A stretch of DNA of 36,572 nt from Methanospirillaceae archaeon (lineage in GTDB: Archaea; Halobacteriota; Methanomicrobia; Methanomicrobiales; Methanospirillaceae). Location: contig JAFGOM010000059.1 of NCBI GenBank assembly GCA_016926505.1, positions 1 to 36,572 on the forward strand, in the 5' to 3' direction. Position numbers and translations under genes: made by a program. This document shows positions 9,285-36,551 of this stretch, piece by piece (within the stretch, counting starts at the first letter, position 1; every line of letters begins with the position of its first letter). The notes beneath the pieces were generated by a model. The model did no database searches, was not told the DNA's origin, and saw only the letters and a program-made list of their open reading frames with translations.

Positions 9285-9302
9285 AAGGAGATACAACCAT
9301 TG
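9285..9302 (+). promoter_or_regulatory. Ribosome site that fixes a TTG start
   Basis: AAGGAG at 9285-9290 lies 9 nt before an in-frame TTG at 9300. No in-frame ATG occurs until about residue 75, well inside the conserved N-terminal region, so the TTG is the best-supported start of the giant gene. Confidence 0.6.
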
Positions 9303-15300: not shown

Positions 15301-18074
15301 TCAGAGAGATGGTACAGGCTCATGCATACTGGCGTATGAAAGGACTCATTGTCGATTTAGTGATATGGAATGAGGATCAGTCAGGATACCGGCAGGAACT
15401 GCATGATGAGATTATGTCTCAGATGCCCCAGGGTTCTGATTCATCGTTATTAAACCGGAAAGGAGGAATTTTCATCAGGCGTCTTGAACAGATCTCAGAT
15501 GAGGATCGCATCCTTATAGAGACCGTGGCACGGGCTATTATCTCAGATCGTGGAGGTACACTGGCCGAACAGTTGGAACGGACTGACTGGAATGAGATTG
15601 CAGTTCCCCGTCTTCTTCCCTCCCGGACAATTCTTCATGAATCAAAGGCCGGTCCTGGTATGACCGGTGAAGGACTTCTTTATTTCAACGGGACTGGTGG
15701 ATTTTCTGGAGATGGCAGGGAGTATGTCATTATTACAGGGCATGGGGTGGTAACCCCGGCACCCTGGGTGAATGTCATCGCAAACGAAACCTTCGGGACG
15801 GTCGTATCAGAGAGCGGGAGTGCCTACACCTGGAGTGAGAATTCCCATGAGTTCCGGCTGACGCCCTGGATGAATGATCCTGTTTCTGACCTGTCTGGTG
15901 AGACTCTGTATATCAGGGATGAGGAGACCGGTATATTCTGGTCTCCTACTCCTCTGCCTGCTCGGGGTTTGAATCAATATGTAACCAGGCATGGGTTTGG
16001 GTATACCGTCTTTTCATCCACTGAGCAGGGGATACATACCGAACTGACGATATATGTCAGTATTGACCGCCCGGTAAAATTCGTATCTCTTCGAATCAGG
16101 AACAAATCCGGTCGCAACAGACTTTTATCTGTCACCGGATATGTAGAATGGGTTCTTGGCGAACTCAGGTCACGATCACTGCTCTATGTGATTACTGAAA
16201 TCGATACGATATCAGATGCAATTTTTGCTAAAAATCCGTACAATCATGAATTTCCGGGAAGAGTTGCGTTTTTTGACTCCAATGTGCGGACAAGGACCGT
16301 AACCGGCGACCGGTATGAGTTTATCGGACGGAACGGTTCGATTGAAAAACCTGCAGCGATGAAGCAGGTACGACTCTCAAATAAAGTCGGAGCCGGCCTG
16401 GATCCCTGTGCCGCGATGCAGATCCCCTGCGAACTCACTGACGGAGAAGAACGGGAGATTATCTTTACCCTGGGTGTCGGACGGGATAGTGATGATGCAA
16501 GGAATATTGTCTTACAAAACCGGGGAGTTGGATCTGCACGCAGAGCAAAAAAAGCAGTACAGGAATACTGGAGCCAGACGCTTGGTGCTGTGCAAATTAA
16601 AACTCCTGACCGGTCGGTGGATCTGCTCGTCAACGGATGGCTTTTATATCAGACTATTGCCTGCCGGCTCTTTGCACGAACCGGGTTTTATCAGTCAGGA
16701 GGTGCATTCGGTTTTCGGGATCAGCTGCAGGATGTGATGGCACTTATTCATACAAGGCCGGATCTTATGAGGAAACAACTTCTCCTCTGTGCAGGGCACC
16801 AGTTTGTTGAGGGTGATGTCCAGCACTGGTGGCACCCGCCATTAAACAGAGGGGTGAGGACCCACTGTTCTGATGATTATTTATGGCTCCCGTTCGCGAC
16901 CTGCAGGTATGTCCATAGTACCCGGGATACCGGGATTCTGGATGAAGAGATATCGTTTCTCAAAGGGCGAGAGGTGCTCCCGGAGGAGGACTCGTACTAT
17001 GATCTGCCTGAGCAGTCAGATATCAGGAAATCCCTTTATGAACACTGCAAACAGGCTATCCTTTTGGGATTGGACTTTGGGGATCATGGTCTCCCGAGAA
17101 TGGGATCAGGCGACTGGAATGACGGGATGAATCTTGTTGGTGCAGAAGGGAAAGGAGAGAGTGTATGGCTCGGATTTTTCCTATTTGACCTTCTTATGAA
17201 GTTTGTGAAGGTAGCAGAGATCCACCATGATCCATTGTTTGCAGAAACATGTCGCACAAACGCAGGACAGATACGGGAGAACCTGGAGAGAGATGGCTGG
17301 GATGGTGAATGGTACCGTCGTGCGTATTTTGATTCAGGCCACCCGCTTGGATCGGCTGGAAACCCGGAGTGCATGATAGACTCGGTTGCCCAGAGTTGGG
17401 CCGTCCTGTCTGGAGCTGCACGTGATGAGCGGGCCAGAAAAGCGATGAGGGCAGTTGTAGAGCATCTTGTCTTATTCGATGACCGTTTAATAACCCTCCT
17501 GACCCCGCCCTTTGATCAGGGTCCCTTACATCCCGGATATATCAAAGGATACGTTCCCGGGGTCAGGGAGAACGGAGGGCATTATTCCCATGCTGCTATC
17601 TGGGTTGTGATGGCGTTTGCCGCTCTGAAGGATAACGGGCAGGCATGGGATCTGCTGCCATTCATAAATCCGGTTCATCATAGCAAGACCCCTGAAGATC
17701 TCAGGAGATACCGGGTTGAGCCGTATGTAATCCCTTCAGATATCTATGCAGCCCCTCCCCATACCGGCCGGGGTGGCTGGACCTGGTATTCCGGTTCAGC
17801 GGGATGGATGTATACACTCATCATTGAATCGCTTCTCGGGGTGCAGATATCAGGAGATATTTTAAGATTCGGGCCCTGTATTCCGATGACCTGGAGGTCG
17901 TATCAGATTGAGTACCGATACCGGTCTACACGATACCAGATTGATGTGCTCAATGCCGGTACGGGATCCAGGGTCAGGTCAGTTGTGGTTGATGGGATAA
18001 CACAGGCTGATATGACTGTTCATCTAAAAGATGATGGAAACGATCATTTGGTACAGGTAGAACTTGGGGAGTAG
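9300..18074 (+). CDS. Cyclic beta-1,2-glucan synthase-like giant enzyme (NdvB/ChvB/Cgs family; GT84 + glucoamylase-like + GH94)
   Basis: The 2924-residue product matches the full architecture of bacterial cyclic beta-1,2-glucan synthases, which are about 2800-2900 residues long. Residues 1-400 form the helical N-terminal region (motifs such as LPHLANGPLKGFPRVYYIAR). Membrane segments lie at about 412-475. The glycosyltransferase domain has D631-T-D633 in ITLDTDTELP, the block SHDLLEGCYARTG and the RWIRGDWQ motif at 779-786. More membrane segments lie at about 820-870, 887-910 and 948-990. The glucoamylase-like region (RTSPTDIGLSLLASLTAYDF near 1050; GISESGYNVTDTTLNYQYRA near 1475) is followed by GH94 phosphorylase modules, with the DWND signature at 2605-2608 expected to hold the catalytic acid. 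In bacteria the protein makes its own glucan primer from UDP-glucose in the membrane, trims chain length by phosphorolysis and cyclises the product. Here it should likewise make a beta-1,2-glucan, as osmolyte or envelope polymer. No exporter (NdvA/ChvB-partner type) or modifying gene adjoins. The frame is intact over 8.7 kb, which argues for selection. Confidence 0.92.
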   Translation: MWDTFVHKRKIRDNKTCIGQIDADPLRDELYSGDQLAQHAKDTACLYRIDTRSGHDRLLPRLADNEKVLLETHDLMNAAIEADRRIAPAGEWLLDNFYLVEEQIRTARHHLPKEYSTALPHLANGPLKGFPRVYYIARELIAHCDGRIDTQSLFDFIDAYQTITPLLLGELWAIPIMFRLSLIENLRRIADSISANSLDSESAGYFVDQMKKVAREDPKNLILVIADMARSDPPLTCAFVAEMARQLQGQSGTLIFPLTWIEHRLSERNLTVEQMIHADSQAQAADQVSFGNSISSLRLLDTMDWREFVERLSLVEQTLRSDPADMYAAMDFETRDRYRHVIEEIAKKRELFEGDVAQKAVELAAFSRGRKDRPIRASHVGYFLMDEGRDSLLEALHIHPSFFDMIQGSGKRHLCSLYFLGISFITLIVAIFGYTGLSTSEWYVALLILVLLLFVGTQCALNLSNWIITILIPPVIIPKMDYSAGIPEDRRTMVVIPTVVSGLSNGTELLDSLEIRYLANRDANLYFALLTDLISADTEELPTDSEIINLLSVGIQELNVRYQDEKPDTFFLMHRSRTWNAGEGIFMGYERKRGILEAFNTLLSGNGKNPFSKIVGNQEILTGIRYVITLDTDTELPRNCAKRLIGAISHPLNQPVSDPHTRVIREGYGILQPRVALSLSKPGVSHFASLFGGEPGIDPYTRAVSDVYQDAFAEGSYIGKGIYDRHAFFHSVEGRFPENRILSHDLLEGCYARTGLVSDVQVFEEYPVCYLADSSRRHRWIRGDWQIVSWIFPFVQGNTSKKQKNPLSSLSRWKICDNLRRSLVAPATVFLIIISATNLLDPLFWTAFIASLYLIPPVCTAGWKCVKKPAEQTWMLHLLDIPSIIRDQLAVPLITLAFLPYEAYLSLDAIFRSCWRMIVSHHNLLEWTTHQEAGQRSHDLAGFYRVMWPAPFIGALFLFSRFFISPSAVPVIEVFAFAWILSPAIAWWISQPIQHKITRLSLLQEQFLRGIARRTWRFFETYVAAEDNYLPPDNYQEQPVCAVAHRTSPTDIGLSLLASLTAYDFGYIPMGELIERTEKTLNTMGRLKRFRGHFYNWYDTITLEPLLPRYISTVDSGNLLGDLLVLRQGLDELPGCPILSKRFADGMSDTLSLLSDAIDAAEKEKRGVVPVSVSSKIAELKGGAVLISGQTPEAIRSLCSLDEMATEVLAALRNHPDDEIRWWADSAKRQAETHLKDLKTYITWVSAGSPPDSIRNEVPEELRSSLYSFCTILKRQNNQIPTLREIADLSEVLYRESGPLLEWLEIQKDTDNAFASGSHWLVRIVQELTTSSERAEERIRLISSLTEKIHACTGIEYEFLYEKTSNLLSIGYNATDLRRDASFYDLLASEARLTSFIGIAYGQLPQEHWFALGRLLTTVGAGKPTLISWSGSMFEYLMPLLLMPTYENTLLDRTYHAVVARQIEYGRKRGVPWGISESGYNVTDTTLNYQYRAFGVPGLGFKRGLAEDLVIAPYAAAMGLMVNPTLACQNLELMDSLGYTGPYGFYEAVDYTPSRVPPGHKQMVVQSFMVHHQGMVLLSLAYALLNRPMQRRFESDQSLLATMMLLQEKMPRNTPFYPHAGEVLGVHKKTGDSESLVRIFQTANTQRPEVHLLSNGRYHVMVSNSGSGYSRWNDLAVTRWREDPTADSCGTFCYIRDLASGEFWSNGYMPARKKPDTYQTIFKQARAEFRRRDRDFDTRTEIIVSPEDDVELRRIWVTNRSWTRRTIEFTSYAEVVLAPFGSDESHPAFHNLFVQTELVREKNAILATRRPRSEGDHPPWMLHLMTVHGKEVRPISFETDRFRFIGRTNSLSRPVAMTDCSTLSDTAGPVLDPIVAIRCTITIDPQETAGVNIFTGVSASREGSVALIEKYYDGYIADRVSELAWTHAHVIMRQLNATERDAQLYGALASSVIYANPSRRAGQNVLLKNSRGQSGLWGYGISGDFPIVLVRIRSRSRISLIREMVQAHAYWRMKGLIVDLVIWNEDQSGYRQELHDEIMSQMPQGSDSSLLNRKGGIFIRRLEQISDEDRILIETVARAIISDRGGTLAEQLERTDWNEIAVPRLLPSRTILHESKAGPGMTGEGLLYFNGTGGFSGDGREYVIITGHGVVTPAPWVNVIANETFGTVVSESGSAYTWSENSHEFRLTPWMNDPVSDLSGETLYIRDEETGIFWSPTPLPARGLNQYVTRHGFGYTVFSSTEQGIHTELTIYVSIDRPVKFVSLRIRNKSGRNRLLSVTGYVEWVLGELRSRSLLYVITEIDTISDAIFAKNPYNHEFPGRVAFFDSNVRTRTVTGDRYEFIGRNGSIEKPAAMKQVRLSNKVGAGLDPCAAMQIPCELTDGEEREIIFTLGVGRDSDDARNIVLQNRGVGSARRAKKAVQEYWSQTLGAVQIKTPDRSVDLLVNGWLLYQTIACRLFARTGFYQSGGAFGFRDQLQDVMALIHTRPDLMRKQLLLCAGHQFVEGDVQHWWHPPLNRGVRTHCSDDYLWLPFATCRYVHSTRDTGILDEEISFLKGREVLPEEDSYYDLPEQSDIRKSLYEHCKQAILLGLDFGDHGLPRMGSGDWNDGMNLVGAEGKGESVWLGFFLFDLLMKFVKVAEIHHDPLFAETCRTNAGQIRENLERDGWDGEWYRRAYFDSGHPLGSAGNPECMIDSVAQSWAVLSGAARDERARKAMRAVVEHLVLFDDRLITLLTPPFDQGPLHPGYIKGYVPGVRENGGHYSHAAIWVVMAFAALKDNGQAWDLLPFINPVHHSKTPEDLRRYRVEPYVIPSDIYAAPPHTGRGGWTWYSGSAGWMYTLIIESLLGVQISGDILRFGPCIPMTWRSYQIEYRYRSTRYQIDVLNAGTGSRVRSVVVDGITQADMTVHLKDDGNDHLVQVELGE

Positions 18075-21501: not shown

Positions 21502-21605
21502 CCTGATGATGCAATTATTGGATTCAAACCCGGGTTTTGATCACAAAGAAATACGAACCATTTCTTTATCTCTTCTTTTGCCGATTGAGTAGTACGGTGG
21601 AAAAA

Positions 21606-22916
21606 ATGTATTCCAGACAAGACTCCCGGTACCAGTCATTACTATCATCACCGGAACAGGCGGTAAACCATATCAAAAACGGCGAGACTATCGTATATGG
21701 AATGAGTATCTGCCAGCCCCCGGCACTCCTGAAAGCCATTGCAGATCATATCAGACAATACAATCTCAATAATATCAACATCTATACCTTTCTTCCAAGA
21801 GAGCACACCCGGGACACCGTTCTCTCTCTTGAGCTCTGTGACCAGATAACTCATCACTCATGGTTTACCGGCGTAGCAGACCGGGTACTCACCCGGTATG
21901 GACTTAGTTATTATGTCCCGTCATACCTGCACCAGATCCCAAGGTTATGCCGGGATTTCATGGAGATAGATACGGTAGTGACGACCGTCTCACCCATGGA
22001 CAAAGCAGGTTTTTTTAGTTTTGGGACCGGTAACGATTACATCTCAACTGCTGCACGGTATGCAAAGAAGGTGCTTGTTGAGGTAAACCACAATATGCCC
22101 CGTGTTTTTGGCGATTCACAGATACATATCTCTGATATCGACGGGATAGTGGAGTACGATACTCCTCTCCTTGAGATCGCCCCTCCTGTGGAAAAACCAG
22201 AAGACAACCTCATCGGTTCGATGATCGCAGAGATGATTCCTGACGGAGCGACCATTCAGCTGGGAATTGGTGGTCTGCCGAATGCGGTCACCAGTTGCCT
22301 GACAGATCATGCTGACCTGGGGGTGCATACCGAACTGTTCACCGAAGGAATGGTTGATCTGATAGAAGCCGGGGTGATAACCGGGAAGAAAAAGAATCTT
22401 CACCCGCAAAAACATGTATTTACCACCGCTGCCGGAACCCGGCGGATGTATGAGTTTATGGATGATAATCCCTCAATGGAGAGTTATCCTGCCTCGTATG
22501 TCTGTTCTCCTGAGATTATTGCCAGAAATGACTCGATGATCTCGATAAACTCTGTTCTTGAGGTGGATCTTCTCGGTCAGGCGAATGCAGAGTATTTGTC
22601 CGGTTCTCTCTTTAGCGGGACCGGAGGACAACTGGACTTTGTGCGAGGGGCATTTGATTCAAAAGGTGGAAAATCTATCCTTGCTTTCTACTCAACCGCG
22701 AAAAAAGGAACGATATCAAAGATTGTACCCCGCCTGAAAGAGGGAGCCGCAATTACCACCCCGAGACCTGATGTACATTACCTGGTAACAGAATATGGTA
22801 CTGCCAATCTGAAAGGAAAGGATACCCGGCAGCGTGCCCGTGCAATTATTGACCTTGCACATCCCTCATTTCGTGACGAACTATTGTGGGAAGCAGATAC
22901 CATGGGGATCATATAA
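21606..22916 (+). CDS. Acetyl-CoA hydrolase/CoA-transferase family protein (4-hydroxybutyrate CoA-transferase type)
   Basis: The 436-residue product has the two-domain fold and usual length of the family that includes 4-hydroxybutyrate and acetate CoA-transferases. Visible landmarks are LGIGGLPNAV at about 219-228 (oxyanion/CoA loop), the conserved glutamate E243 in GVHTELFTEGM, which forms the acyl-glutamyl intermediate in this family, and the later FSGTGGQLDFVRGA-type block near 337. I chose the ATG at 21606 because GGTGG lies 5 nt upstream and the protein then has the family's length; the longer TTG-started frame adds 23 unlikely residues. The reaction would be transfer of CoA between acetate and another acyl-CoA, or hydrolysis. 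No pathway partners adjoin. The acyl substrate cannot be read from the sequence. A link to acetate activation for the nearby acs operon is possible but unproven. Confidence 0.85.
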   Translation: MYSRQDSRYQSLLSSPEQAVNHIKNGETIVYGMSICQPPALLKAIADHIRQYNLNNINIYTFLPREHTRDTVLSLELCDQITHHSWFTGVADRVLTRYGLSYYVPSYLHQIPRLCRDFMEIDTVVTTVSPMDKAGFFSFGTGNDYISTAARYAKKVLVEVNHNMPRVFGDSQIHISDIDGIVEYDTPLLEIAPPVEKPEDNLIGSMIAEMIPDGATIQLGIGGLPNAVTSCLTDHADLGVHTELFTEGMVDLIEAGVITGKKKNLHPQKHVFTTAAGTRRMYEFMDDNPSMESYPASYVCSPEIIARNDSMISINSVLEVDLLGQANAEYLSGSLFSGTGGQLDFVRGAFDSKGGKSILAFYSTAKKGTISKIVPRLKEGAAITTPRPDVHYLVTEYGTANLKGKDTRQRARAIIDLAHPSFRDELLWEADTMGII

Positions 22917-25963: not shown

Positions 25964-26716
25964 TTAAGGGTTTCGGATAATACCGATTCCCGGATCCTTA
26001 TATATTTTTTTCCCCAGCTCACAGACTGCTTCTCTCGCCGGTGATCCGGCAGGAACCCGTGAGACCGGATCTCCGGCACGATCAGCTGCATCGATCCCAG
26101 GATCGAGAGGAACAGAAAAGAAAGCATCAGTGTGGGGTATTCCGGGCCCGGCACGGTTGATGACCAGAACGATCCGGTTCTCATCCATCCCGAGATCGAC
26201 AGCCAGGCCTTTTATCCGGTCAGCCGTTCTCCTGCCCCTTGCCCCCGGGTCAGATATAACCAGCAAAAGATCCGGGATCCCTATCGTTCCCCGTGAGATA
26301 TGCTCCATTCCTGCCTCGTTATCAACGATGATGAACCGGTACTCCTGCCCCAGATTCTGCATGGCAGTTGTCAGAAGATCGTTTGCAAAACAGTAACACC
26401 CGGATCCTTCCGGTCTCCCCATGGCTATCAGATCAAAACCCCTGTTCTCAACCAGAGTCTTTCGAAACTGCAACGCAATATAATCAGCCCGTGTCATTCC
26501 CGCAGGAATAGAACGGGTAAATGCTTCTTCACGCATGGAACCGAGTGTCTCGGTGAGGGTGACACCAAGGGCCTCGTGCAGATTTGCATTGGGATCCGCA
26601 TCAACCGCAAGGATAGGCTCGATGCCCTGTTCAATCAGGCACCGGATCAGAAGGGAAGCAATCGTTGTCTTACCGGTCCCTCCTTTTCCGGCAATACCAA
26701 TAGTAACCGGTGTCAT
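25964..26716 (-). CDS. cooC: CooC/AcsF-type nickel-insertion ATPase
   Basis: The 250-residue product is a MinD-like P-loop ATPase with the deviant Walker A GKGGTGKTT at about 10-18 and the switch region AVDADPNANLHEALG at 38-51. The CooC-specific Cys-x-Cys is C107-Y-C109 in PEGSGCYCF; in CooC1 this pair binds nickel at the dimer interface. CooC proteins load nickel into CO dehydrogenase, and the AcsF branch into acetyl-CoA synthase. With no CODH gene here, the likely client is the ACS A-cluster encoded by the same operon. Its ATG overlaps the stop of mesB by 4 nt (ATGA). Confidence 0.88.
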   Translation of the reverse strand: MTPVTIGIAGKGGTGKTTIASLLIRCLIEQGIEPILAVDADPNANLHEALGVTLTETLGSMREEAFTRSIPAGMTRADYIALQFRKTLVENRGFDLIAMGRPEGSGCYCFANDLLTTAMQNLGQEYRFIIVDNEAGMEHISRGTIGIPDLLLVISDPGARGRRTADRIKGLAVDLGMDENRIVLVINRAGPGIPHTDAFFSVPLDPGIDAADRAGDPVSRVPAGSPAREAVCELGKKIYKDPGIGIIRNP

Positions 26717-27741
26717 AATGCCCGGACCATTCCGGTAATCTCTGCTACCGTCTTTGTGATTGCAACCGATGACGAAACGTCAGCAAGACGCAACCCACAG
26801 GACGGGGTTATCATTGCCTGGGCATCAAAGAGATCAACAGGGATATACTCTGATAACGCCGTTCGTATCGCAAGGTATCGCTCAAAAAGAGATGAAGTAC
26901 TCTCTTTTTCAAATTTATCCACCTCTGCCGGCACAATTCCCCAGGCAACCACTCCCCCCTGTTCGAGGTATGAGACGATATCATCTTTATACAAAAGAAA
27001 CTCGGTAGCATAGGCATAGGCATCAAACGAGATACAGGATGGACCAAGCGAGATAAGAAATCCCCAGTCGGTATTTGAACAGCAGTGAAACCCGATTCCT
27101 CCCTGAATGAGGCTGGAAAAATCCTCAAATGATGCCTCAACCATCCCGTTGTCAACCTGCATTACCGAGGAACCAAGGGCGGCAAAGTACGGTTCATCGA
27201 TGATGACAAGTGTATCAGGTGTGCCGGTCTTCCCGATGAGCGACTCGTACCACCGGGCACGAAGGGCGAGCATCTTTGAGAGCATATCAAAATACTGTGC
27301 ATCGTATGCTATCGGCCGGCGATCGCCGTCGGTTATTGTCAGACCGAATGTGACCGGCCCGGTTACCTGAACCTTGGTGCAGACAACCCCGGAGAGATCC
27401 CTGCCTGCAAGTTCATGATACCCCCCGGCATATCCTTCGTGCGAGGGGGCATGGTTCTCGTAATTACCCTCCATGAAATCCAGGTAAATCTGCTCCATTG
27501 CAAGAGAGAAATCAATTGAACGGTCGAGGTGCAGGGAATTACCTTTTAGCACTCCTCCGGGGAGATACTCGGCATCCCTCGTGATGATGGCCTCATAGGG
27601 GGTCCGTGCCGGAAGAGTCGGGGCTGTCGGGTATTCCGGCTGAAAGGCAAGAACCAGATCACAGGCTTCTTTGGGATCGGTATGAGGGAGTGAACCAACC
27701 CCGCTGGATGCGGAATGTGGGGAAGGTATCGTGCGAATCAT
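26713..27741 (-). CDS. mesB: Core (folate-independent) methionine synthase of the MesB type, MetE C-terminal-domain-like
   Basis: The 342-residue product corresponds to the catalytic barrel of cobalamin-independent methionine synthase without the folate-binding N-terminal half. The zinc ligands are present: His and Cys of the H-x-C motif (HCC, about residues 217-219) and the late Cys in TPSCGLRLADV (about 312). The opening SGVGSLPHTDP and the EPYFAALGSS region are also typical. MesB-family enzymes are described from anaerobes with the Wood-Ljungdahl pathway and are predicted to take the methyl group from the corrinoid iron-sulfur protein. Here the gene lies between the activator of that protein and cooC, which fits exactly. 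I chose the ATG at 27741: it overlaps the acsV stop (ATGA) and has GGGTGGT 6 nt upstream; the frame's earlier ATG at 27765 is inside acsV. A generic uroporphyrinogen decarboxylase-like methyltransferase is the main alternative. Confidence 0.78.
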   Translation of the reverse strand: MIRTIPSPHSASSGVGSLPHTDPKEACDLVLAFQPEYPTAPTLPARTPYEAIITRDAEYLPGGVLKGNSLHLDRSIDFSLAMEQIYLDFMEGNYENHAPSHEGYAGGYHELAGRDLSGVVCTKVQVTGPVTFGLTITDGDRRPIAYDAQYFDMLSKMLALRARWYESLIGKTGTPDTLVIIDEPYFAALGSSVMQVDNGMVEASFEDFSSLIQGGIGFHCCSNTDWGFLISLGPSCISFDAYAYATEFLLYKDDIVSYLEQGGVVAWGIVPAEVDKFEKESTSSLFERYLAIRTALSEYIPVDLFDAQAMITPSCGLRLADVSSSVAITKTVAEITGMVRAL

Positions 27742-29645
27742 GGATTTACCACCCTTATACGGCATTGCTGCAGAGCACGTTCTACCGTGGGAAAGAGGGA
27801 GAGATCGGTATGGGGAAGAAACGCACTGCGGGTGTACTCATCCATGAAGGATGGTGTGGCATTAAGTTCGATATATCCAATCTTTTCAGCAATCTCATTG
27901 AGCAGTTTCCGTTTTTTTCTGTCCAGTAAGGCCATGTTTGCTCCCTCTGCCGCACCATTTCCCAGATTTTTTATCTGGTCAATCGATACTTCCGGGATAA
28001 GACCGATGGTTGTTGCATGGTCTTTATTGATGTAATTACCAAATCCCCCGGCAAAATAGATAGTCTTTATATCAGTTCTTGTTATCCCTGCTACGTTCAT
28101 GAGCACCGTGCAGGCAGCAAGCGTAGAGGCCTTGCTCATAATAAGGTTCTTGATATCATTTTCGGTAATAACAATATCCTTGTTTATCCCTGCCTTTTCC
28201 TTCCATACGAGGACATATTCAGGATAATAGGGACCGGGTCTTATTCGGGGATGGGGTATCGCGGTATTTATCCTGCCGTTCCGGTCGATGACACAGGCTT
28301 TGAGTAGTTCAGCAAGGATATCAATAAGGCCAGACCCGCAGATCCCTAAGGGATTACTGTTGTTTATCGTTGAGAATGTCGGTTCCAGGGTTGCCGGATC
28401 GATACTGACCTTCTCGATGGCTCCCGGGTTTGCCCGCATCCCAAAGAGGACTTCACCTCCTTCAAGCGCCGGACCGGCAGCACCGGCACAGGCGAAAATC
28501 CAGTCATTATTTCCTAAAACAACCTCATAATTGGTTCCGATGTCAATCATAAGAGAGATATCTGAAGACCCGGTCATCCCACTGGCAAGGATATCAGCAA
28601 TAATGTCACCCCCGATAAAGTCACTCACCGCAGGAAAGATGAAGATGCCTCCGTTTGGTCTGACAGAAAGCCCAATCCGGGAAGCAGACGTTGAGAGTGC
28701 CCGGCGGACGACCGGTACATAGGGTTCGTGAATCATGTACGAGGGATCAATCCCCATCAGAATATGGGTCATGATGGTATTGCCGGCGATAACAACTTCA
28801 TAAATATCATCAATATCCACTCCGGCAGCATTCGCAGCGGTCTGAATCGCGGCATTTATCGACTCGGCAGCAAGCGCCTGGAGTTTGGGAAAACCGCCCA
28901 ATTTCCCGTAATTGACCCGGGAAAGAATATCCTCTCCACAACTGATCTGGCGGTTGTAGTTCGATGTCACCCCCAAGACCTGACCTGTTGTCAGATCACG
29001 CAGGAACACGACGATGGTGGTTGTCCCGAGATCGACAGCAGCTCCATACATCTTCTTTCTCGTATCCCCTTTCTCGATATGGATAAGACGGTACCCTCCG
29101 GGAACAAGAGCGATGGTTGCGGTAACGTTCCACCCGCTCTCCCGGGTCACTGAAGGGATACGGCGGAGAAGTTCTAAGGGGGCATAAATTCGTTTATCTA
29201 CCGGTCCCCCTGCATCATGAACTCCGTCAAGCAGGCGATCAAGATCAGATATCGGGTTGTCCAGGGTCGGGGGTTTTAGCTGCAGATGATACTTCCAGAC
29301 TGATGGGTTGAGATCAACGGTATGGCCAAGGGTATCGATCAGGATCTGCTGGGACTGAATGAGGGTTTGTTCCGGGACGAACACCTGACAGTCATCGATG
29401 ACATATGTCCTGCATGCGAGACAGGCACCGTTGTGTAACTCTTCGGCAGTAAAGAACTCTTCATACCTCTGATTATCAAATTCTGTTCTTCCTGACTTGA
29501 GAAACATGACACATTTGCCACATTTTCCAATCCCGCCACAGACAACATTGACCGGCAGACCTGCTTTCCGGGCTGCAGAAAGGATAGAATCCCCTTTTGG
29601 GACTTCAACTTTCTGAAATCCCGGCAAAAAAGTAACGGTGGGCAT
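27738..29645 (-). CDS. acsV: Reductive activator of the corrinoid iron-sulfur protein (RACo/AcsV type)
   Basis: The 635-residue product starts with a plant-type [2Fe-2S] ferredoxin domain: C36, C42 and C45 in CGGIGKCGKC and C78 in CLACRT. A linker and middle domain follow, then an ASKHA-type ATPase (DUF4445) from about residue 200 with GAAVDLGTTTIVVFL, IAGNTIMTHILMG, MIDIGTNYEVVLG and YFAGGFGNYI. RACo uses ATP to return accidentally oxidised Co(II) of CoFeSP to Co(I). The N-terminal [2Fe-2S] domain separates it from RamA, which carries C-terminal 4Fe-4S clusters. It sits 3 nt after acsC and overlaps mesB by 4 nt; a GAGGAG lies about 11 nt before its ATG. Its presence means the operon's CoFeSP is expected to cycle through Co(I). 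Confidence 0.9.
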   Translation of the reverse strand: MPTVTFLPGFQKVEVPKGDSILSAARKAGLPVNVVCGGIGKCGKCVMFLKSGRTEFDNQRYEEFFTAEELHNGACLACRTYVIDDCQVFVPEQTLIQSQQILIDTLGHTVDLNPSVWKYHLQLKPPTLDNPISDLDRLLDGVHDAGGPVDKRIYAPLELLRRIPSVTRESGWNVTATIALVPGGYRLIHIEKGDTRKKMYGAAVDLGTTTIVVFLRDLTTGQVLGVTSNYNRQISCGEDILSRVNYGKLGGFPKLQALAAESINAAIQTAANAAGVDIDDIYEVVIAGNTIMTHILMGIDPSYMIHEPYVPVVRRALSTSASRIGLSVRPNGGIFIFPAVSDFIGGDIIADILASGMTGSSDISLMIDIGTNYEVVLGNNDWIFACAGAAGPALEGGEVLFGMRANPGAIEKVSIDPATLEPTFSTINNSNPLGICGSGLIDILAELLKACVIDRNGRINTAIPHPRIRPGPYYPEYVLVWKEKAGINKDIVITENDIKNLIMSKASTLAACTVLMNVAGITRTDIKTIYFAGGFGNYINKDHATTIGLIPEVSIDQIKNLGNGAAEGANMALLDRKKRKLLNEIAEKIGYIELNATPSFMDEYTRSAFLPHTDLSLFPTVERALQQCRIRVVNP

Positions 29646-29648
29646 CGC

Positions 29649-30974
29649 CTACTTCCACTCCTCAGTTAAAAACCGCCCGATATCAGCAGCATCCCTGGGT
29701 CCGACAACAACCTTCCATCCGGTTGCATCCTCGATCCTTCCTGAAAGGGGAGATGCATATCCGGGAATGATAAGTTTCTTCTCATTCACTTCGTCTGCAA
29801 GACTGGTTTTTGTGATCCATTCTGCAACAACCGACTCGTTTAATTTCCCTGCAGCAACCGAGGTGAGCACTGACATCCCTTCAGTCTCAACGATGAGCAG
29901 GAAACAGGGAACCCGGGCCGCTTCAAGGTACCCCTGCAGGGTAAAGAAGGTAAGCGAGAAGTTTACCGTCATAAATACCGGTGAATCGGGTCCCGGATCG
30001 CCGATACGGTACAGTCCCGGCGTCATCTGGATCGGTTTTTGCGGGTCAGTGTAGATATTCTGGCGCAATACGAGAGCAGTTGTCATCTCTGCTACCGGGA
30101 GCTGGGGAGTGATAAGAACCGAGGCAAATTTGACGATTCCTGTCACGATATTGTCAGGAACCGATCCACTGCAGTCAAGAAGTATCGGAAAACCGAGTTC
30201 CGGTGCTGTCCGTGTAAGAGCCAGGCTCCGGACAAGCGTTGCACGGCTGAGGTATTCCCCGCTGTCAGCCCCGGTGATATCAAGAACTATCTTTTTTATT
30301 CCCAAACCCATGCACTCTTTTGATAATGCACCGATCTTTTCTACATCAGGTGCACGGACCACGAGCGGAGCATCGTATTTCTTTGCAAGATCACAGAGTT
30401 CCCGGTAATTGTGCTCTGTTGCTGCACAGATAAGCGGGTTATAATTTCCGCAGACAGCAAGGCATGCCTTGAGGATCTCCGGATCCTCTGATTGTAATAC
30501 CAGAGGAATATCTCCGCCTTCATTGGCTGTAGTGACTGCGGTCACCGACTGCTTTAGGGAACCTGACCCGAGATCAACTGCCAGTCCGTTTACCTGCAGG
30601 TCAATCCCGATTCTGGTTATCTTCTCCTCCCGAATCCGTGCTGCAAGGGCCGTTATCTCTTCTGCCGGTGCGGTATCCACGACCCGGTAGATAATTGCCG
30701 GTTCGTGATAGAAGGTCTTGTCATGGCGGTAAAATACGGTCTCTTCACCGATGGTTATCATTCGGCTTCCCATCCCGATGGTAATTTTTGCTATCGGGGC
30801 CCCGGTCTGGGATGAAAGGGCGGCTTTTGCTTCACTATCGAGGTACGGACAGGAGGCGGGATCCGCTTTTCCCTGTGCCAGTTTCATGGCAAACGAGAGA
30901 CAGGTCTGTTCCCCGCACTCCTTGCAGTTCTTCTTTGGCAGCAGTTTGTAAATCTCCAGAGGTTTAAGCGCCAT
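29649..30974 (-). CDS. acsC: Corrinoid iron-sulfur protein, large subunit (AcsC/CdhE)
   Basis: The 441-residue product begins with the 4Fe-4S domain: C17, C20, C25 and C42 in PKKNCKECGEQTC and ASCPYL. A TIM-barrel methyltransferase-like domain follows, then a C-terminal corrinoid-binding domain. It is the gamma subunit that carries the cobamide accepting the methyl group. The frame is open from 31058, but the family start MALKPLEIYKLLPKKN lies at 30974, with GGGAGGTG 4 nt upstream. This overlaps the end of acsD by 11 nt. The length agrees with AcsC (about 446). Confidence 0.92.
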   Translation of the reverse strand: MALKPLEIYKLLPKKNCKECGEQTCLSFAMKLAQGKADPASCPYLDSEAKAALSSQTGAPIAKITIGMGSRMITIGEETVFYRHDKTFYHEPAIIYRVVDTAPAEEITALAARIREEKITRIGIDLQVNGLAVDLGSGSLKQSVTAVTTANEGGDIPLVLQSEDPEILKACLAVCGNYNPLICAATEHNYRELCDLAKKYDAPLVVRAPDVEKIGALSKECMGLGIKKIVLDITGADSGEYLSRATLVRSLALTRTAPELGFPILLDCSGSVPDNIVTGIVKFASVLITPQLPVAEMTTALVLRQNIYTDPQKPIQMTPGLYRIGDPGPDSPVFMTVNFSLTFFTLQGYLEAARVPCFLLIVETEGMSVLTSVAAGKLNESVVAEWITKTSLADEVNEKKLIIPGYASPLSGRIEDATGWKVVVGPRDAADIGRFLTEEWK

Positions 30975-31914
30975 CAGACACCTCCCTGCGGGATCCCTCC
31001 CAAAGGGCATCAATCGCAGTTCGCAACGGCAAAACCGTCCCCGGGTGTCGTACCACAAGGATTGCTGCTCCTGCTATTGCAGATGCAACAGCCGTTGCCC
31101 GTTCCCATGATACCGCGATCTCAGAGGGACTATCAGACTCCCGTATCTCTTTTACGGTCAGGCTGTCAGCAGGAGCAGATATCATCGGCATCGCGAGATC
31201 GTCGTCACCTTTCAGAGCAGCAAACCGGATCCGTTCCATGGTTGAGTAGGTATACTCAAACCCGTAACCCAAAGCACCGGTATAGGGGTCGATAATGATG
31301 CGGTTATCCGGGATGCCGGTCTCACGGAGCAGGATATTTAATTGCTTGGCAAGATTGACATCAATTGGAGTCTGGGCAATGATGATGTGGTCATATGCCA
31401 TCGCTGCAGCAGCAACACTCCGGTACCGGTCTGCTTCGGCGGTTCCAAGTACGAGACGTTCTCCCTGTCCTGCTTCACCACACCTGATATAGACCTCAGA
31501 GTCAACGGCAGGATCTGCACTTCCTTCAATGATGAGGGGAAGCGTGGTTGCTGCAAGAACCGACTGTACCGTTGCAGAGATTGATGCAAAATCAGAGGAA
31601 TTCGGTTTTCGGGTAGAGGTGAGATTAAGCCTGATACAATCTGGTTTTAAGGTTTTTTCTCCATATGCAGCCCATGATGCCGGATCTGATATCCCTTTTG
31701 GCATGGCATCCCTGACTACCTGCGGCCAGATAGCGGTGTCATCACATATCTCATAGGCTAGTAACGGCTTTTTCCCGGACCGGTTCATAAAAGGGAGATC
31801 GGTATCGCCTCCGATCTCATATGATACCGATCTGGTCCCTCCTTCCTGTTTGGTTGCACCAATAGTAACCGTCTGTATCGATCCGGACCACGTATGAGGC
31901 AGGATATAGTTCAT
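30964..31914 (-). CDS. acsD: Corrinoid iron-sulfur protein, small subunit (AcsD)
   Basis: The 316-residue product is a TIM-barrel protein that pairs with AcsC and helps hold the corrinoid. The motifs ALGYGFEYTYSTMERIRFAA and MPMISAPADS are typical of the family. The length fits bacterial AcsD (about 310-320) rather than the longer archaeal CdhD. The chosen ATG at 31914 has AGGAGG 6 nt upstream, and that ribosome site overlaps the acsB stop codon, so the two genes are translationally linked. Confidence 0.91.
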   Translation of the reverse strand: MNYILPHTWSGSIQTVTIGATKQEGGTRSVSYEIGGDTDLPFMNRSGKKPLLAYEICDDTAIWPQVVRDAMPKGISDPASWAAYGEKTLKPDCIRLNLTSTRKPNSSDFASISATVQSVLAATTLPLIIEGSADPAVDSEVYIRCGEAGQGERLVLGTAEADRYRSVAAAAMAYDHIIIAQTPIDVNLAKQLNILLRETGIPDNRIIIDPYTGALGYGFEYTYSTMERIRFAALKGDDDLAMPMISAPADSLTVKEIRESDSPSEIAVSWERATAVASAIAGAAILVVRHPGTVLPLRTAIDALWEGSRREVSDGA

Positions 31915-31924
31915 TTCATTCCTC

Positions 31925-33952
31925 CTAGATGAGAGAAGGCATGGATAATGCCGGATGACTGACTGATTCAAGATAGGTGAGAAGTTCATCAAGAGTGACG
32001 GCATCTGTCTCGTCTGCAATTATTGAGAAGAGGGTATCAAACCCTTTTTCGTGAAAGGATTCACCCATCTTTACCCTGATCTCTTCTTTGAGATGAGCGG
32101 GCATCCAGACAACCCTTTGTATTCCCCCTTCAGCCTGTAAGAAACGGTCACTTGTGAGATAACTCTTAGATATCCCGATAAATCCCGGGGTCTGGGCACC
32201 TCCTCCGATCGTTCCTGCGAGCGTGGAGAACGTCATACCGAAAGGAGTATCACCTCTGAATTCACGGGTTACCACCATAACCCCGTTCGTCTCAGGGAGT
32301 ATCATGGCAATCGCTTCAAAACACCCGCAACACGTCATCGGTGCGTCCATGATACTGTACAGTACGCACCGCTGTATCTCGCCATGGGAGGCTTTTCTCA
32401 CAAACCGGTTCACCCCTTCATACTCTCCTGAAACGGCGTTGAGAAGGGTGCCTTTCTCAACCGGCTGGTTGGCTCCTGACGGTGAGATCTCGTACGCGGT
32501 CCTGCCGTCAAGCCAGGTGATCGCACCACATAATGCCGGTCGTTCCGGGGTTATGATACAGACATGGTTTGGTGCAAAGGTCTGGCAGAGAATGCAGGAG
32601 TAGTACAGGGATACGTCTTCATCTTTTAAGCCGGCGATGCGTTCATCACGTTTTTGATAAATCGCCTCTGCATCCGCTAATGCCCGGGTGACCGCATCCT
32701 TATCGGTGATGAGAGTAACCTGCACGGCATCAAGAAGGGACTCAAAATCCATCCTGAACCTGGCGGCAAGTAACTTCCCCAGATCGGTTATTTTGAGATT
32801 GTTTGCGACTGCTTCTTTCGTGATCCTGACCCAGATGAGATCGCGTTGGGCAACATGCCAGGATCCCTCGCCGTAATTGATGAAATTATGGATTCTTCGT
32901 TCCAGGACCGGTTCATAATCACTCTTCATCTGCTTCCCGGCAACCTCGATTATGATGCCAAGCGGGACAGCACTCCCTTCCGGTATCTGGTCAACATCCG
33001 GTCCGATAAGGGTGACTTTTCCATCGGTTACTTCCCCATGGGGCCGGGTTACCAGCAGTTCAAAGGCAGGTGACCGTCCCCCTCCGAACTCAACAAACAT
33101 CTCCTCTTTTCTGATGCTTTTCCCTTCAAAGGCAGGAGAACAGGCCATGGGAATCGGGATGGCAGTAACCCTGACGGTAATCCCCCGCAGTTCCATGCCT
33201 TTTGATACAGCGGTTTGTGGGTCAGAGAGCAGCCATTCCCCTCCTTCATACCCTCCCACCTGGATGATCGGGATATTGAGGATACGAAGAGCGTCGACAA
33301 ATGCAATCTCTTCATCAGAAAGGGAAGGAAACACAATGACAAAGGCTTTTGCACGTTCTGCGGCATAGGTAATCAGCCGGCTGACATCTCCGGGAGGGAC
33401 CCCGCCAAACATCATGGCAACTCTTGCAAGGATGTCTGCGAAATGAACTCCCTTTATTGAAGTTGCTCCCAGAGGAATAAGGCGGAGGGAGAGATCTACC
33501 TTTACTCCTGAGTCAGTAAGCACCGTAATGACCGGTCCACAAAGAAAGGTGAGCATCAGTTTTTCCTGCAGTTCCCTGCATATGGCAGCTGCGGTATCAG
33601 CTGATGGCGGAGTACCCAGTATCAGGCAGAGCCCGAGAATACTTCCATCAACGAGGGAGTATCCCAGTTTTCTGATTAAAGCATCTTCGATAAACCCGGT
33701 GTAGCCGGTTGCTTCCGATATTTCCCGTTCCTGCTCTGCAACCACTATCTCAGCACCGATAAGCATATTTTTGTCTGAATCTTCATAGGCTGTCCGGGCT
33801 GCATCGGCGGTATGCACTTCCCTGCCGGTTACTGCGTAGGTTATGGGAAGATGGTATGCAGTCTCAGGAAAGGCCAGATCACCGGTTAATGCCGAGATGG
33901 TACCTGATATTTTTTCTCTTCCCCTGATAATTGCAGACGGAATTTCAGTCAT
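31925..33952 (-). CDS. acsB: Acetyl-CoA synthase, bacterial-length AcsB with complete A-cluster
   Basis: The 675-residue product aligns by memory along nearly all of bacterial AcsB (about 730 residues), including the N-terminal domain that archaeal CdhC (about 470) lacks. The A-cluster ligands are all present: CILCQTFAPNHVC and PERPALCG at about 452-474, and the C-G-C motif in TCCGCFEA near 541-543. GPDVDQIPEGS, ERRIHNFINYGEGSW and GTIGGGAQTPGF are also diagnostic. ACS makes or cleaves acetyl-CoA from methyl-CoFeSP, CO and CoA. The frame is open to 34018; I prefer the second of two adjacent ATGs (33952), with AAGGGTGA 4 nt upstream (33955 is equally in frame). In bacteria the N-terminal domain contacts CODH and forms the CO tunnel; no CODH gene is present in the window. 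Confidence 0.94.
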   Translation of the reverse strand: MTEIPSAIIRGREKISGTISALTGDLAFPETAYHLPITYAVTGREVHTADAARTAYEDSDKNMLIGAEIVVAEQEREISEATGYTGFIEDALIRKLGYSLVDGSILGLCLILGTPPSADTAAAICRELQEKLMLTFLCGPVITVLTDSGVKVDLSLRLIPLGATSIKGVHFADILARVAMMFGGVPPGDVSRLITYAAERAKAFVIVFPSLSDEEIAFVDALRILNIPIIQVGGYEGGEWLLSDPQTAVSKGMELRGITVRVTAIPIPMACSPAFEGKSIRKEEMFVEFGGGRSPAFELLVTRPHGEVTDGKVTLIGPDVDQIPEGSAVPLGIIIEVAGKQMKSDYEPVLERRIHNFINYGEGSWHVAQRDLIWVRITKEAVANNLKITDLGKLLAARFRMDFESLLDAVQVTLITDKDAVTRALADAEAIYQKRDERIAGLKDEDVSLYYSCILCQTFAPNHVCIITPERPALCGAITWLDGRTAYEISPSGANQPVEKGTLLNAVSGEYEGVNRFVRKASHGEIQRCVLYSIMDAPMTCCGCFEAIAMILPETNGVMVVTREFRGDTPFGMTFSTLAGTIGGGAQTPGFIGISKSYLTSDRFLQAEGGIQRVVWMPAHLKEEIRVKMGESFHEKGFDTLFSIIADETDAVTLDELLTYLESVSHPALSMPSLI

Positions 33953-34288: not shown

Positions 34289-36469
34289 TCAGTCTTCCTG
34301 CCTGACTGCTTCTTTTATCCTGCTCTCAACGATTTTGGAGAGGGTGTCAAACCTGGGGTTTACCGCAACTCTGGCACCATCATTGGAGAGATTGTAAAGA
34401 GCCAGTCCCGGGGTAAAATTATCATTGAGGGCTTCGGTTAATTCCCGGTATACAACCAGATCAAGGTTTTTTATGACCGATGCGATGACAACACCCGGCC
34501 CGAGATAGGACTGATCACAATCAACACCGATAATCTTGAGATCAGGCAGTTCTTTTGCTGCTGATATGGCTCCAAGACCGGATTCTCCTGCCACGGTAAA
34601 GATGATATCAGTCCCGTTCCGGTACATATCACGGGCAATCGCTGCTCCCTTCTCCGGCTGCTGGTATCCGGAGTTATCATCGGCAATATAGGTTATATGT
34701 ACGAGAACGCGGGGATCTTCATCTGTAGCACCCTGTACGAATCCGTCGGTAAAGCTGTCGATAACCTGGGCTTTTCTCCCGGCGATTACTCCTACCTGTC
34801 CGGTCTTTGTCTGGTTTGCAGCAAGTCTTCCGGCAAGATAACTTGCCCCATGCATAAAGAACGAGACGGTTTTGATGCCGGGAAGCGATACCGGGTCTGC
34901 ATCAATCACGATAACCGGTATATCAGGATACTGTTTCGCTATTCGCTCCGCATACTCTGTCATGGAGGATCCAAGCATCACGACAGTACCGGCATTCTTT
35001 CCGGTTATCGGATTTAGCACCGGATCCGGCTCATTTTCGGTATCTCCGGTGAATATCTCATGAACGGTCAGGTTCAGATCATCCCTGGCTCTCAGAATAC
35101 CGAGATATGCCTGGTCGGTAAATCCAAAATCTCCTTTTGCTCCATTGTAGACAAAAGATATCTCTGTCCTTGGATCTTTGATTGGATCCGGACAGACAGA
35201 CCCGTTCTGTACCGGTGTGATCCCCGGGTCCTGGTTTTTTCCCTCTCCGGTATATCCGGGGATGTATGAATCAGCGAGAAATTCCCCTTCCTCTACTCTC
35301 CAGTGAACATACCAGGTTTGTATGGGATCTGTTCCGGTTGCAGTATCATAATCAAGCGGTCCTGATGCACCGGAGAGATCAGGGAGATATCCTGCCCTGA
35401 TAAGCCTGACTGCCTGTGCCGTTCCCTGATCATCCCAGGACGTTATCATGTCCCTCCCCTGTACTACTGATACGATTGCTTTTTTTGGGTCTTTCGTAGG
35501 TTTTGTTTCCAGCCTTGCAAGAGTTGCTATTCCCAGAGCGAGGGCATCTCTCGCAGGAGCTGCATAATCGGACGGCATTCTTTCGAATGTTTTCTGGTAG
35601 GCAACGAAAAATCCGGTTTTTTTATCAGCCGTCGGACTAACTCCCTCTGCACCTTCTGCAGATTCGCCGGCATTTGTGAGAAATGTCTCGCAGCGTGCAG
35701 CATCAGTAAAGAACAACCGAACGGTGCTGTTTTGTGCATAAGTAAGACAGGCAGTCTCTGCAGCGACGGATCCCCTTGCGGCAACAATCAGGTAATCAGG
35801 ATTTTTTGAGAGTATTTCGGCAAGCAGATATGAGAGATTCTGTTCCCCTGCATAAGCCACGGATCCAGAATGAGCAACTCCTGATTTTTTGGCGTAATAT
35901 TCTGCCCAGTCTGCGAATGTCTTTCCGTATGTGTTGTTTTCATACAACAGAGCAACCGATTCTGCTCCCCGCCGGGCAAGCAGATCCATGATGATCCGGG
36001 TCTGGATTCGGTCCCCGCTCGTTGTCCGCCAGATATATCCTGATCTTCCAAACCGGTCAGCAATCTCTTCTGATGTGGCAGACGGAGTAATAAGGATCTT
36101 TTTTGCAGCAATAAATTCAGGAGCTACCGAAAAGACCTCATCACTTGTTGCCGGTCCGATGACAACCCGGATACCGGGATCATTAAGCATTTTTCGGGCA
36201 GCATCCATGATAGGGGTCACACTGGTATCTTCACACACCAGTTCAACATCCAATCCTTCCTTTCCCAATCCGGCCACGGTCCAGTTCAGGGTCTCATAAA
36301 AGTCCATATCACTATCCCCTGATGCAGGAAGGAGTACCCCTATCCGGTATGTACCGGCCTGTGGGGCCTCTGTTCCGGTTTTATCACCGCACACAGTACA
36401 AGAAAGCAATAGCATCGGGATTATGAAGAATATCGCCACGATTAGAGAAATAAAGCGTTTTGTCTGCAT
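34289..36469 (-). CDS. Lipoprotein fusing two periplasmic-binding-protein folds (Peripla_BP_6 + BMP family)
   Basis: The 726-residue product has a lipoprotein signal (hydrophobic stretch then LLLSC, lipid-modified C24). Residues about 40-395 form a branched-chain amino-acid receptor-type domain (YRIGVLLPASGDSDM, YENNTYGKTFADWAEYYAKK). After a linker of about 50 residues, residues about 450-715 form a second domain of the BMP/Med nucleoside-binding family (ISFVYNGAKGDFGFTDQAYL, GSSMTEYAERIAKQYPD, GVIAGRKAQVIDSFTDGF). The two folds are normally separate proteins of different transport systems. No permease or ATPase genes adjoin, so it may act as a sensor or scavenging receptor. The start at 36469 is chosen because it opens the lipoprotein signal; the frame's earlier ATG at 36547 adds a charged, unlikely leader. 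It stands 330 bp upstream of the acs operon in the same direction. Confidence 0.82.
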   Translation of the reverse strand: MQTKRFISLIVAIFFIIPMLLLSCTVCGDKTGTEAPQAGTYRIGVLLPASGDSDMDFYETLNWTVAGLGKEGLDVELVCEDTSVTPIMDAARKMLNDPGIRVVIGPATSDEVFSVAPEFIAAKKILITPSATSEEIADRFGRSGYIWRTTSGDRIQTRIIMDLLARRGAESVALLYENNTYGKTFADWAEYYAKKSGVAHSGSVAYAGEQNLSYLLAEILSKNPDYLIVAARGSVAAETACLTYAQNSTVRLFFTDAARCETFLTNAGESAEGAEGVSPTADKKTGFFVAYQKTFERMPSDYAAPARDALALGIATLARLETKPTKDPKKAIVSVVQGRDMITSWDDQGTAQAVRLIRAGYLPDLSGASGPLDYDTATGTDPIQTWYVHWRVEEGEFLADSYIPGYTGEGKNQDPGITPVQNGSVCPDPIKDPRTEISFVYNGAKGDFGFTDQAYLGILRARDDLNLTVHEIFTGDTENEPDPVLNPITGKNAGTVVMLGSSMTEYAERIAKQYPDIPVIVIDADPVSLPGIKTVSFFMHGASYLAGRLAANQTKTGQVGVIAGRKAQVIDSFTDGFVQGATDEDPRVLVHITYIADDNSGYQQPEKGAAIARDMYRNGTDIIFTVAGESGLGAISAAKELPDLKIIGVDCDQSYLGPGVVIASVIKNLDLVVYRELTEALNDNFTPGLALYNLSNDGARVAVNPRFDTLSKIVESRIKEAVRQED

Positions 36470-36551
36470 TGGATTCCGGTTTCTTTTTTCTTTTATAAAT
36501 GAGTTGCTTTTTGGTATGGGGGAATACCTGACGTAAAAACGAACCAATTTC

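Follow-up and report, generated by a model that had tools for sequence, protein, structure and literature searches.

A compact six-gene operon, acsB-acsD-acsC-acsV-mesB-cooC (the cassette), lies at positions 25964-33952 on the minus strand of the window, the whole 36,572-nucleotide stretch of Methanospirillaceae archaeon DNA analyzed here (assembly GCA_016926505.1, contig JAFGOM010000059.1). The genes encode an acetyl-CoA synthase (ACS; AcsB), both subunits of a corrinoid iron-sulfur protein (CoFeSP; AcsCD) and its activator, a predicted core methionine synthase (MesB), and an ATPase of the CooC family (Table 1). The acsD and acsC genes overlap by 11 nt, ATGA joints connect acsV to mesB and mesB to cooC, and gaps of 3 nt and 10 nt separate acsC from acsV and acsB from acsD. 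There is no carbon monoxide dehydrogenase (CODH) gene (cooS, acsA, or cdhA) within the operon and no acsE, which was not searched for in the remaining genome. Little can be concluded from the lack of acsE in an archaeon, since exchange of methyl groups with tetrahydropterins is carried out by archaeal CdhDE itself. Our analysis suggests that the operon is probably a stand-alone acetyl-CoA decarbonylase, uncoupled from CODH, that feeds methyl-CoFeSP to MesB.

Table 1. Genes of the acetyl-CoA synthase cassette in the window and the basis of each call.
Gene	Position	Strand	Product	Length	Basis
acsB	31925..33952	-	Three-domain (A1-A2-A3) acetogen-type acetyl-CoA synthase	675 aa	NF040764, 868 bits vs. 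cut-off 800; solved ACS match, 591 bits
acsD	30964..31914	-	Small CoFeSP subunit	316 aa	PF03599; solved CoFeSP small subunit, 211 bits
acsC	29649..30974	-	Large CoFeSP subunit with FeS motif	441 aa	PF03599, PF04060; NF003195, 502 bits vs. cut-off 306; solved CoFeSP, 355 bits
acsV	27738..29645	-	RACo-type reductive activator of CoFeSP	635 aa	PF14574, PF17651, PF17650, and PF00111 above cut-off; best NCBIfam match AcsV, 546 bits, under its cut-off of 800
mesB	26713..27741	-	MesB-type core methionine synthase (predicted)	342 aa	Fold and zinc motif
cooC/acsF	25964..26716	-	CooC-family P-loop nickel-insertion ATPase	250 aa	Best solved match CooC of C. hydrogenoformans, 71 bits

Family evidence supports five of the six genes, and the assignment of MesB rests on its fold and zinc motif. 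An earlier interpretation made from the DNA letters alone (the sequence-only reading) had described the same six genes with these overlaps and joints and had noted that cooS, acsA, cdhA, and acsE are missing from the operon; every gene was located at the place it gave, on the minus strand. The cooC/acsF ATPase probably serves AcsB because carriers of the cassette that lack CODH retain cooC. No Rfam elements were found in the window.

The distribution of the cassette was surveyed in 150 genomes of the order Methanomicrobiales. MesB is present in 50 genomes and full-length AcsB in 49, every one of them with MesB (both, 49; MesB only, 1; AcsB only, 0), and the lone genome with MesB only (G108) is 89% complete. 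The Fisher p-value for this association is 5e-39, which overstates independence because the genomes are related. AcsB occurs in 49 of the 50 MesB genomes and never without MesB, which links MesB to AcsB as well as to CoFeSP. The window has the same gene order as 20 Methanomicrobiales relatives that were fetched and, to the extent that contigs allow, as 80 public loci, some of which are the same genomes as those fetched. Recurring in both sets, the arrangement of the operon is far beyond chance. The distribution of full-length CooS is independent of that of AcsB (p = 0.73). Eight cassette carriers that are 93-99% complete, one of them a single contig at 99%, have no detected CooS, CdhA, or CdhC, and all eight encode an AMP-forming acetyl-CoA synthetase. 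These carriers would offer AcsB no known route to CO derived from CO2. The self-contained AcsB/CoFeSP/MesB unit pictured by the sequence-only reading is thus borne out, in that AcsB and MesB are inseparable in the survey and are kept by relatives with no detectable CODH. A PF01717 (MesA-type) synthase occurs in 141 of the 150 genomes regardless of the cassette. Recurrent neighbors of the cassette include DUF2114 and, as recognized by eye, genes that we take to encode a pyruvoyl arginine decarboxylase, an ACT-domain protein, and an adenylosuccinate lyase; there are no methionine genes among the recurrent neighbors. In some relatives (L079, L080, L160, and L166), the strand of the cassette also carries CooS and a CooC-like gene some 2-3 kb farther downstream, and in two of these DUF2114 comes next.

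The A1 domain of ACS docks CODH in acetogens, and a 2024 cryo-EM study described this domain as missing in all methanogens (PMC11474084). Cassette AcsB contradicts that statement. Its A1, A2, and A3 domains are in one chain, and its predicted structure matches both whole ACS and isolated A1 domain structures (Foldseek); the AlphaFold model is middling (pTM 0.44) and was used for domain content only. The A-cluster cysteines (C453, C456, C465, C475, C542, and C544) are invariant in 16 of 16 aligned cassette AcsB proteins. The A2-A3 region shares 55% identity with the Carboxydothermus enzyme and 45% with CdhC from the same genome, and cassette A1 is 29-36% identical to acetogen A1. The N-terminal helical part of A1 is shortened by a 16-residue gap and a shorter N-terminus. 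Its Pfam domain scores 28 bits in window AcsB (cut-off 32), compared to 100 bits in a natural CODH-ACS fusion.

Residues of the ACS alcove were taken from PMC11321310, and in window AcsB they are R94, G97, Y98, V101, F182, and F459, with L175 at the tunnel position. Alcove residues G145, V149, and F229 are retained in 62 of 62 cassette AcsB proteins, as is F512 in 16 of 16, and I146 is replaced by Tyr in all 62. Tunnel residue A222 of the Moorella enzyme, which corresponds to the site changed in the A225L variant of PDB 8cmw, is likewise replaced in all 62, by Ile, Leu, or Val. The control sequences, three solved CODH-bound ACS from Moorella and Clostridium autoethanogenum (both PDB chains) and from Carboxydothermus, have Ala at 222, Ile or Val at 146, and the helix. 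An A222L substitution reportedly blocks the tunnel. Natural single-chain CODH-ACS fusions from another family of the same phylum also keep Ala222, Ile/Val146, and the helix, and three cassettes with CooS downstream have the same A1 shortening and tunnel change as the others. Position A265 of the Moorella enzyme, also an engineered site, was rejected as a diagnostic tunnel residue; it is bulky in most cassettes but is Ile in a natural CODH-ACS fusion. The altered A1 docking region and tunnel position fit an uncoupling from CODH, as judged from aligned residues. The fusions are themselves open reading frames of 1354-1395 aa that join a CooS-type CODH to an acetogen-type ACS (L182:5244-9377, L183:6591-10778, L184:8164-12297, and L186:6300-10364). 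The acsD and acsC genes come after the fusion, cooC and acsV are alongside, and the L186 fusion apparently lacks part of A1.

MesB has no Pfam or NCBIfam match. The top 21 PDB matches of its predicted structure (pLDDT 85.8) are all MetE-family methionine synthases (Foldseek), and the 342-aa protein has the MetE catalytic fold without the N-terminal folate domain. Its zinc signature is HCDC (H219, C221, D240, and C315 in the window protein), and these ligands are unchanged in relatives. At the homocysteine site S17 and D182 are retained, in an alignment to MetE based on motifs and on a weak match to MesA by hhalign; MesB of another family likewise retains Ser and Asp. MesB is therefore a putative core methionine synthase, predicted to transfer a methyl group to homocysteine.

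The genome to which the window belongs, as contig C63, measures 2.94 Mb and is 99.97% complete. Elsewhere this genome encodes archaeal CdhA, CdhB, and CdhC (contig C99), CdhD and CdhE with a second AcsV-like protein (contig C73), and MesA (contig C61). On contig C113 (L014:8912-15373), CooS is encoded beside genes for a ferredoxin-like protein, NuoE/NuoF/HoxU-like proteins, and a CooC-like ATPase; this cluster is possibly a pyridine nucleotide-linked CO oxidation unit. The closest public relatives of window MesB (62-66% identity) are in metagenome-assembled genomes labeled Methanospirillum, in a scan that covered methanogens only. Because of these relatives and the archaeal Cdh genes, the source organism is a Methanomicrobiales-type methanogen and not a bacterium, and a Dehalococcoides-like origin of the window is ruled out. 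A host genome free of CODH is ruled out by CooS and the archaeal Cdh genes, and MesB as the only methionine synthase of the host is ruled out by MesA. As worded, the sequence-only reading is not supported on these points. It had proposed a genome search for CODH, archaeal Cdh, and other methionine synthases, and CooS, CdhA-E, and MesA were all found. It had also named as contrary evidence a separate methionine synthase together with a CODH that complexes with this AcsB; half of this is present, as separate MesA and CODH genes (CooS, CdhA/CdhC). The corrinoid protein of mercury methylation, HgcA, is encoded on contig C15 (L018:5869-6936; 419 bits vs. cut-off 275).

An incomplete Wood-Ljungdahl route consisting of AcsB, AcsCD, and core-MetE/MesB has been described in Dehalococcoides mccartyi (Deobald et al., 2020, PMC7005905, citing Zhuang et al., 2014), and label from acetate C2 was found in the methionine methyl group of Dehalococcoides (PMC7005905). 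That route resembles the cassette in its AcsB decarbonylase, CoFeSP methyl carrier, MesB-type synthase, and lack of AcsE, and exit of CO was proposed there. It differs in being bacterial and in having its core-MetE, the only methionine synthase, near SAM genes and outside any acs operon. The archaeal six-gene operon, by contrast, coexists with MesA and, in its own genome, with CODH: CooS, CdhA, and MesA are all present, unlike in a Dehalococcoides-type genome without CODH or another methionine synthase. The Dehalococcoides analogy drawn by the sequence-only reading is therefore apt as a mechanism, but the host is a methanogen. In some methanogens mesB adjoins acsC and acsD, and Price et al. 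(2021, PMC7857596) predicted CoFeSP as the methyl donor and noted coexistence with MesA. Use of methyl-CoFeSP by a MesB-type synthase, which the sequence-only reading had also put forward, accordingly agrees with a published pairing (PMC7857596). The strict AcsB linkage, CODH-free carriers, and changes in ACS domain and tunnel are not discussed in the text of that article (PMC7857596).

The archaeal CdhABCDE complex has homologous catalytic and CoFeSP subunits, which are also encoded on contigs C99 and C73 of the same genome and are 33-45% identical to the cassette proteins (CdhC, CdhD, and CdhE). CdhC lacks A1 and packs on CODH (PMC11474084), whereas cassette AcsB has A1 and no cdhA or cdhB neighbor, which sets it apart from archaeal Cdh (acetyl-CoA decarbonylase/synthase). 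With the CODH/ACS of acetogens (Moorella, Carboxydothermus, and C. autoethanogenum) it shares the three-domain ACS, the A-cluster, and most alcove residues. It differs in the short helical A1, in I146 changed to Tyr and A222 changed to Ile, Leu, or Val, and in an operon with no CODH gene; at the sequence level, a CODH partner and CODH/ACS-like A1 docking and CO tunnel were not found for cassette AcsB.

In the proposed mechanism, the CooC/AcsF-family ATPase would load AcsB with nickel, and AcsB, uncoupled from CODH, would cleave acetyl-CoA to yield CoA and CO together with a methyl group. This methyl group would go to CoFeSP (AcsCD), whose activity AcsV maintains, and MesB would pass it to homocysteine to form methionine. 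The CO would leave or, where a separate CooS exists, be oxidized by it. We observed gene content, gene order, co-occurrence, the carriers in which CODH was undetected, and catalytic residues that are intact alongside altered docking and tunnel residues; we infer the direction of the reaction, the methyl acceptor, and the fate of CO. The conversion of acetyl-CoA and homocysteine to methionine, CoA, and CO had been suggested by the sequence-only reading; it gains from the co-occurrence, the CODH-less carriers, and the residue changes, and it loses from the CODH and MesA of its own genome. The evidence is evenly balanced on whether the cassette enzymes form a second class of archaeal ACS in Methanomicrobiales, an A1-bearing acetyl-CoA decarbonylase with docking and tunnel closed, from which CO escapes and the acetate methyl group passes to a thiol methyltransferase.

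Several points weigh against a CODH-uncoupled decarbonylase. The host genome has two CODHs and MesA, so neither an ACS independent of CODH nor another methionine synthase is forced by need there. CooS just downstream of the cassette in four genera-level loci (L079/L134, L080, L160, and L166) could mean coupling. The 62 AcsB proteins form one clade, and one event that had nothing to do with CODH may account for their fixed changes. ACS is reversible, and AcsB might run forward, making acetyl-CoA from methyl-CoFeSP and CO supplied by CooS, CdhA, or the surroundings, with MesB drawing off some methyl groups for methionine. This would suit a genome that encodes CooS and CdhA and those relatives with CooS beside the cassette, but it is improbable given that the whole cassette is kept in carriers with no detected CODH, that CooS is distributed independently of AcsB, and that the docking helix is short and the tunnel Ala replaced even with CooS nearby.

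Methyl-tetrahydromethanopterin is abundant in methanogens, and archaeal CoFeSP needs no AcsE. CoFeSP could therefore take its methyl group from this compound, as archaeal CdhDE does, and hand it to MesB, with AcsB as an accessory such as a methyl or CO buffer. The methionine methyl group of methanogens is indeed reported to come from methyl-tetrahydromethanopterin (PMC7005905). Such a donor is nonetheless unlikely, since it leaves unexplained both the constant presence of AcsB with MesB and CoFeSP and its invariant catalytic residues, and MesA, present in nearly all of the genomes surveyed, already uses such methyl groups. A different acceptor would also alter the interpretation. In about 58 of 80 relatives, Ala/Gly and Asn take the place of the Ser and Asp of the MetE homocysteine site (in the motif-based alignment above), which counts against methionine as the product, and a second methionine synthase looks redundant beside a near-universal MesA. 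In most relatives at least, the substrate that MesB methylates might then be a different thiol, for example coenzyme M. We consider this very unlikely in view of the Ser and Asp retained by window MesB and that of the other family, and of a fold and four zinc ligands that all match MetE/MesB.

The Dehalococcoides precedent and the link of mesB to acsCD in methanogens are previously published. In the open literature searched, neither the strict AcsB linkage nor the CODH-free carriers nor the A1 and tunnel changes were found to have been reported before, and their novelty is provisional. The genome paper of Methanospirillum hungatei left the role of its Cdh undefined (PMC4704411). The cassette may provide ACS with a function in those Methanomicrobiales that need acetate. 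It is also a source of naturally occurring CO tunnel and alcove variants. The decarbonylase reading makes a testable claim, that acetate C2 would enter the methionine methyl group and CO would be released in methanogens without CODH.

Other genes in the window include one for a member of the acetyl-CoA hydrolase/transferase family, which is on the opposite strand (21537-22916, +) at a distance of about 3 kb from the cassette. Upstream of acsB on the same strand, positions 34289-36547 (-) encode fused Peripla_BP_6 and Bmp/PnrA periplasmic-binding domains. Positions 9300-18074 (+) encode a 2924-aa glycosyl hydrolase 94/glucoamylase-domain protein in this methanogen.

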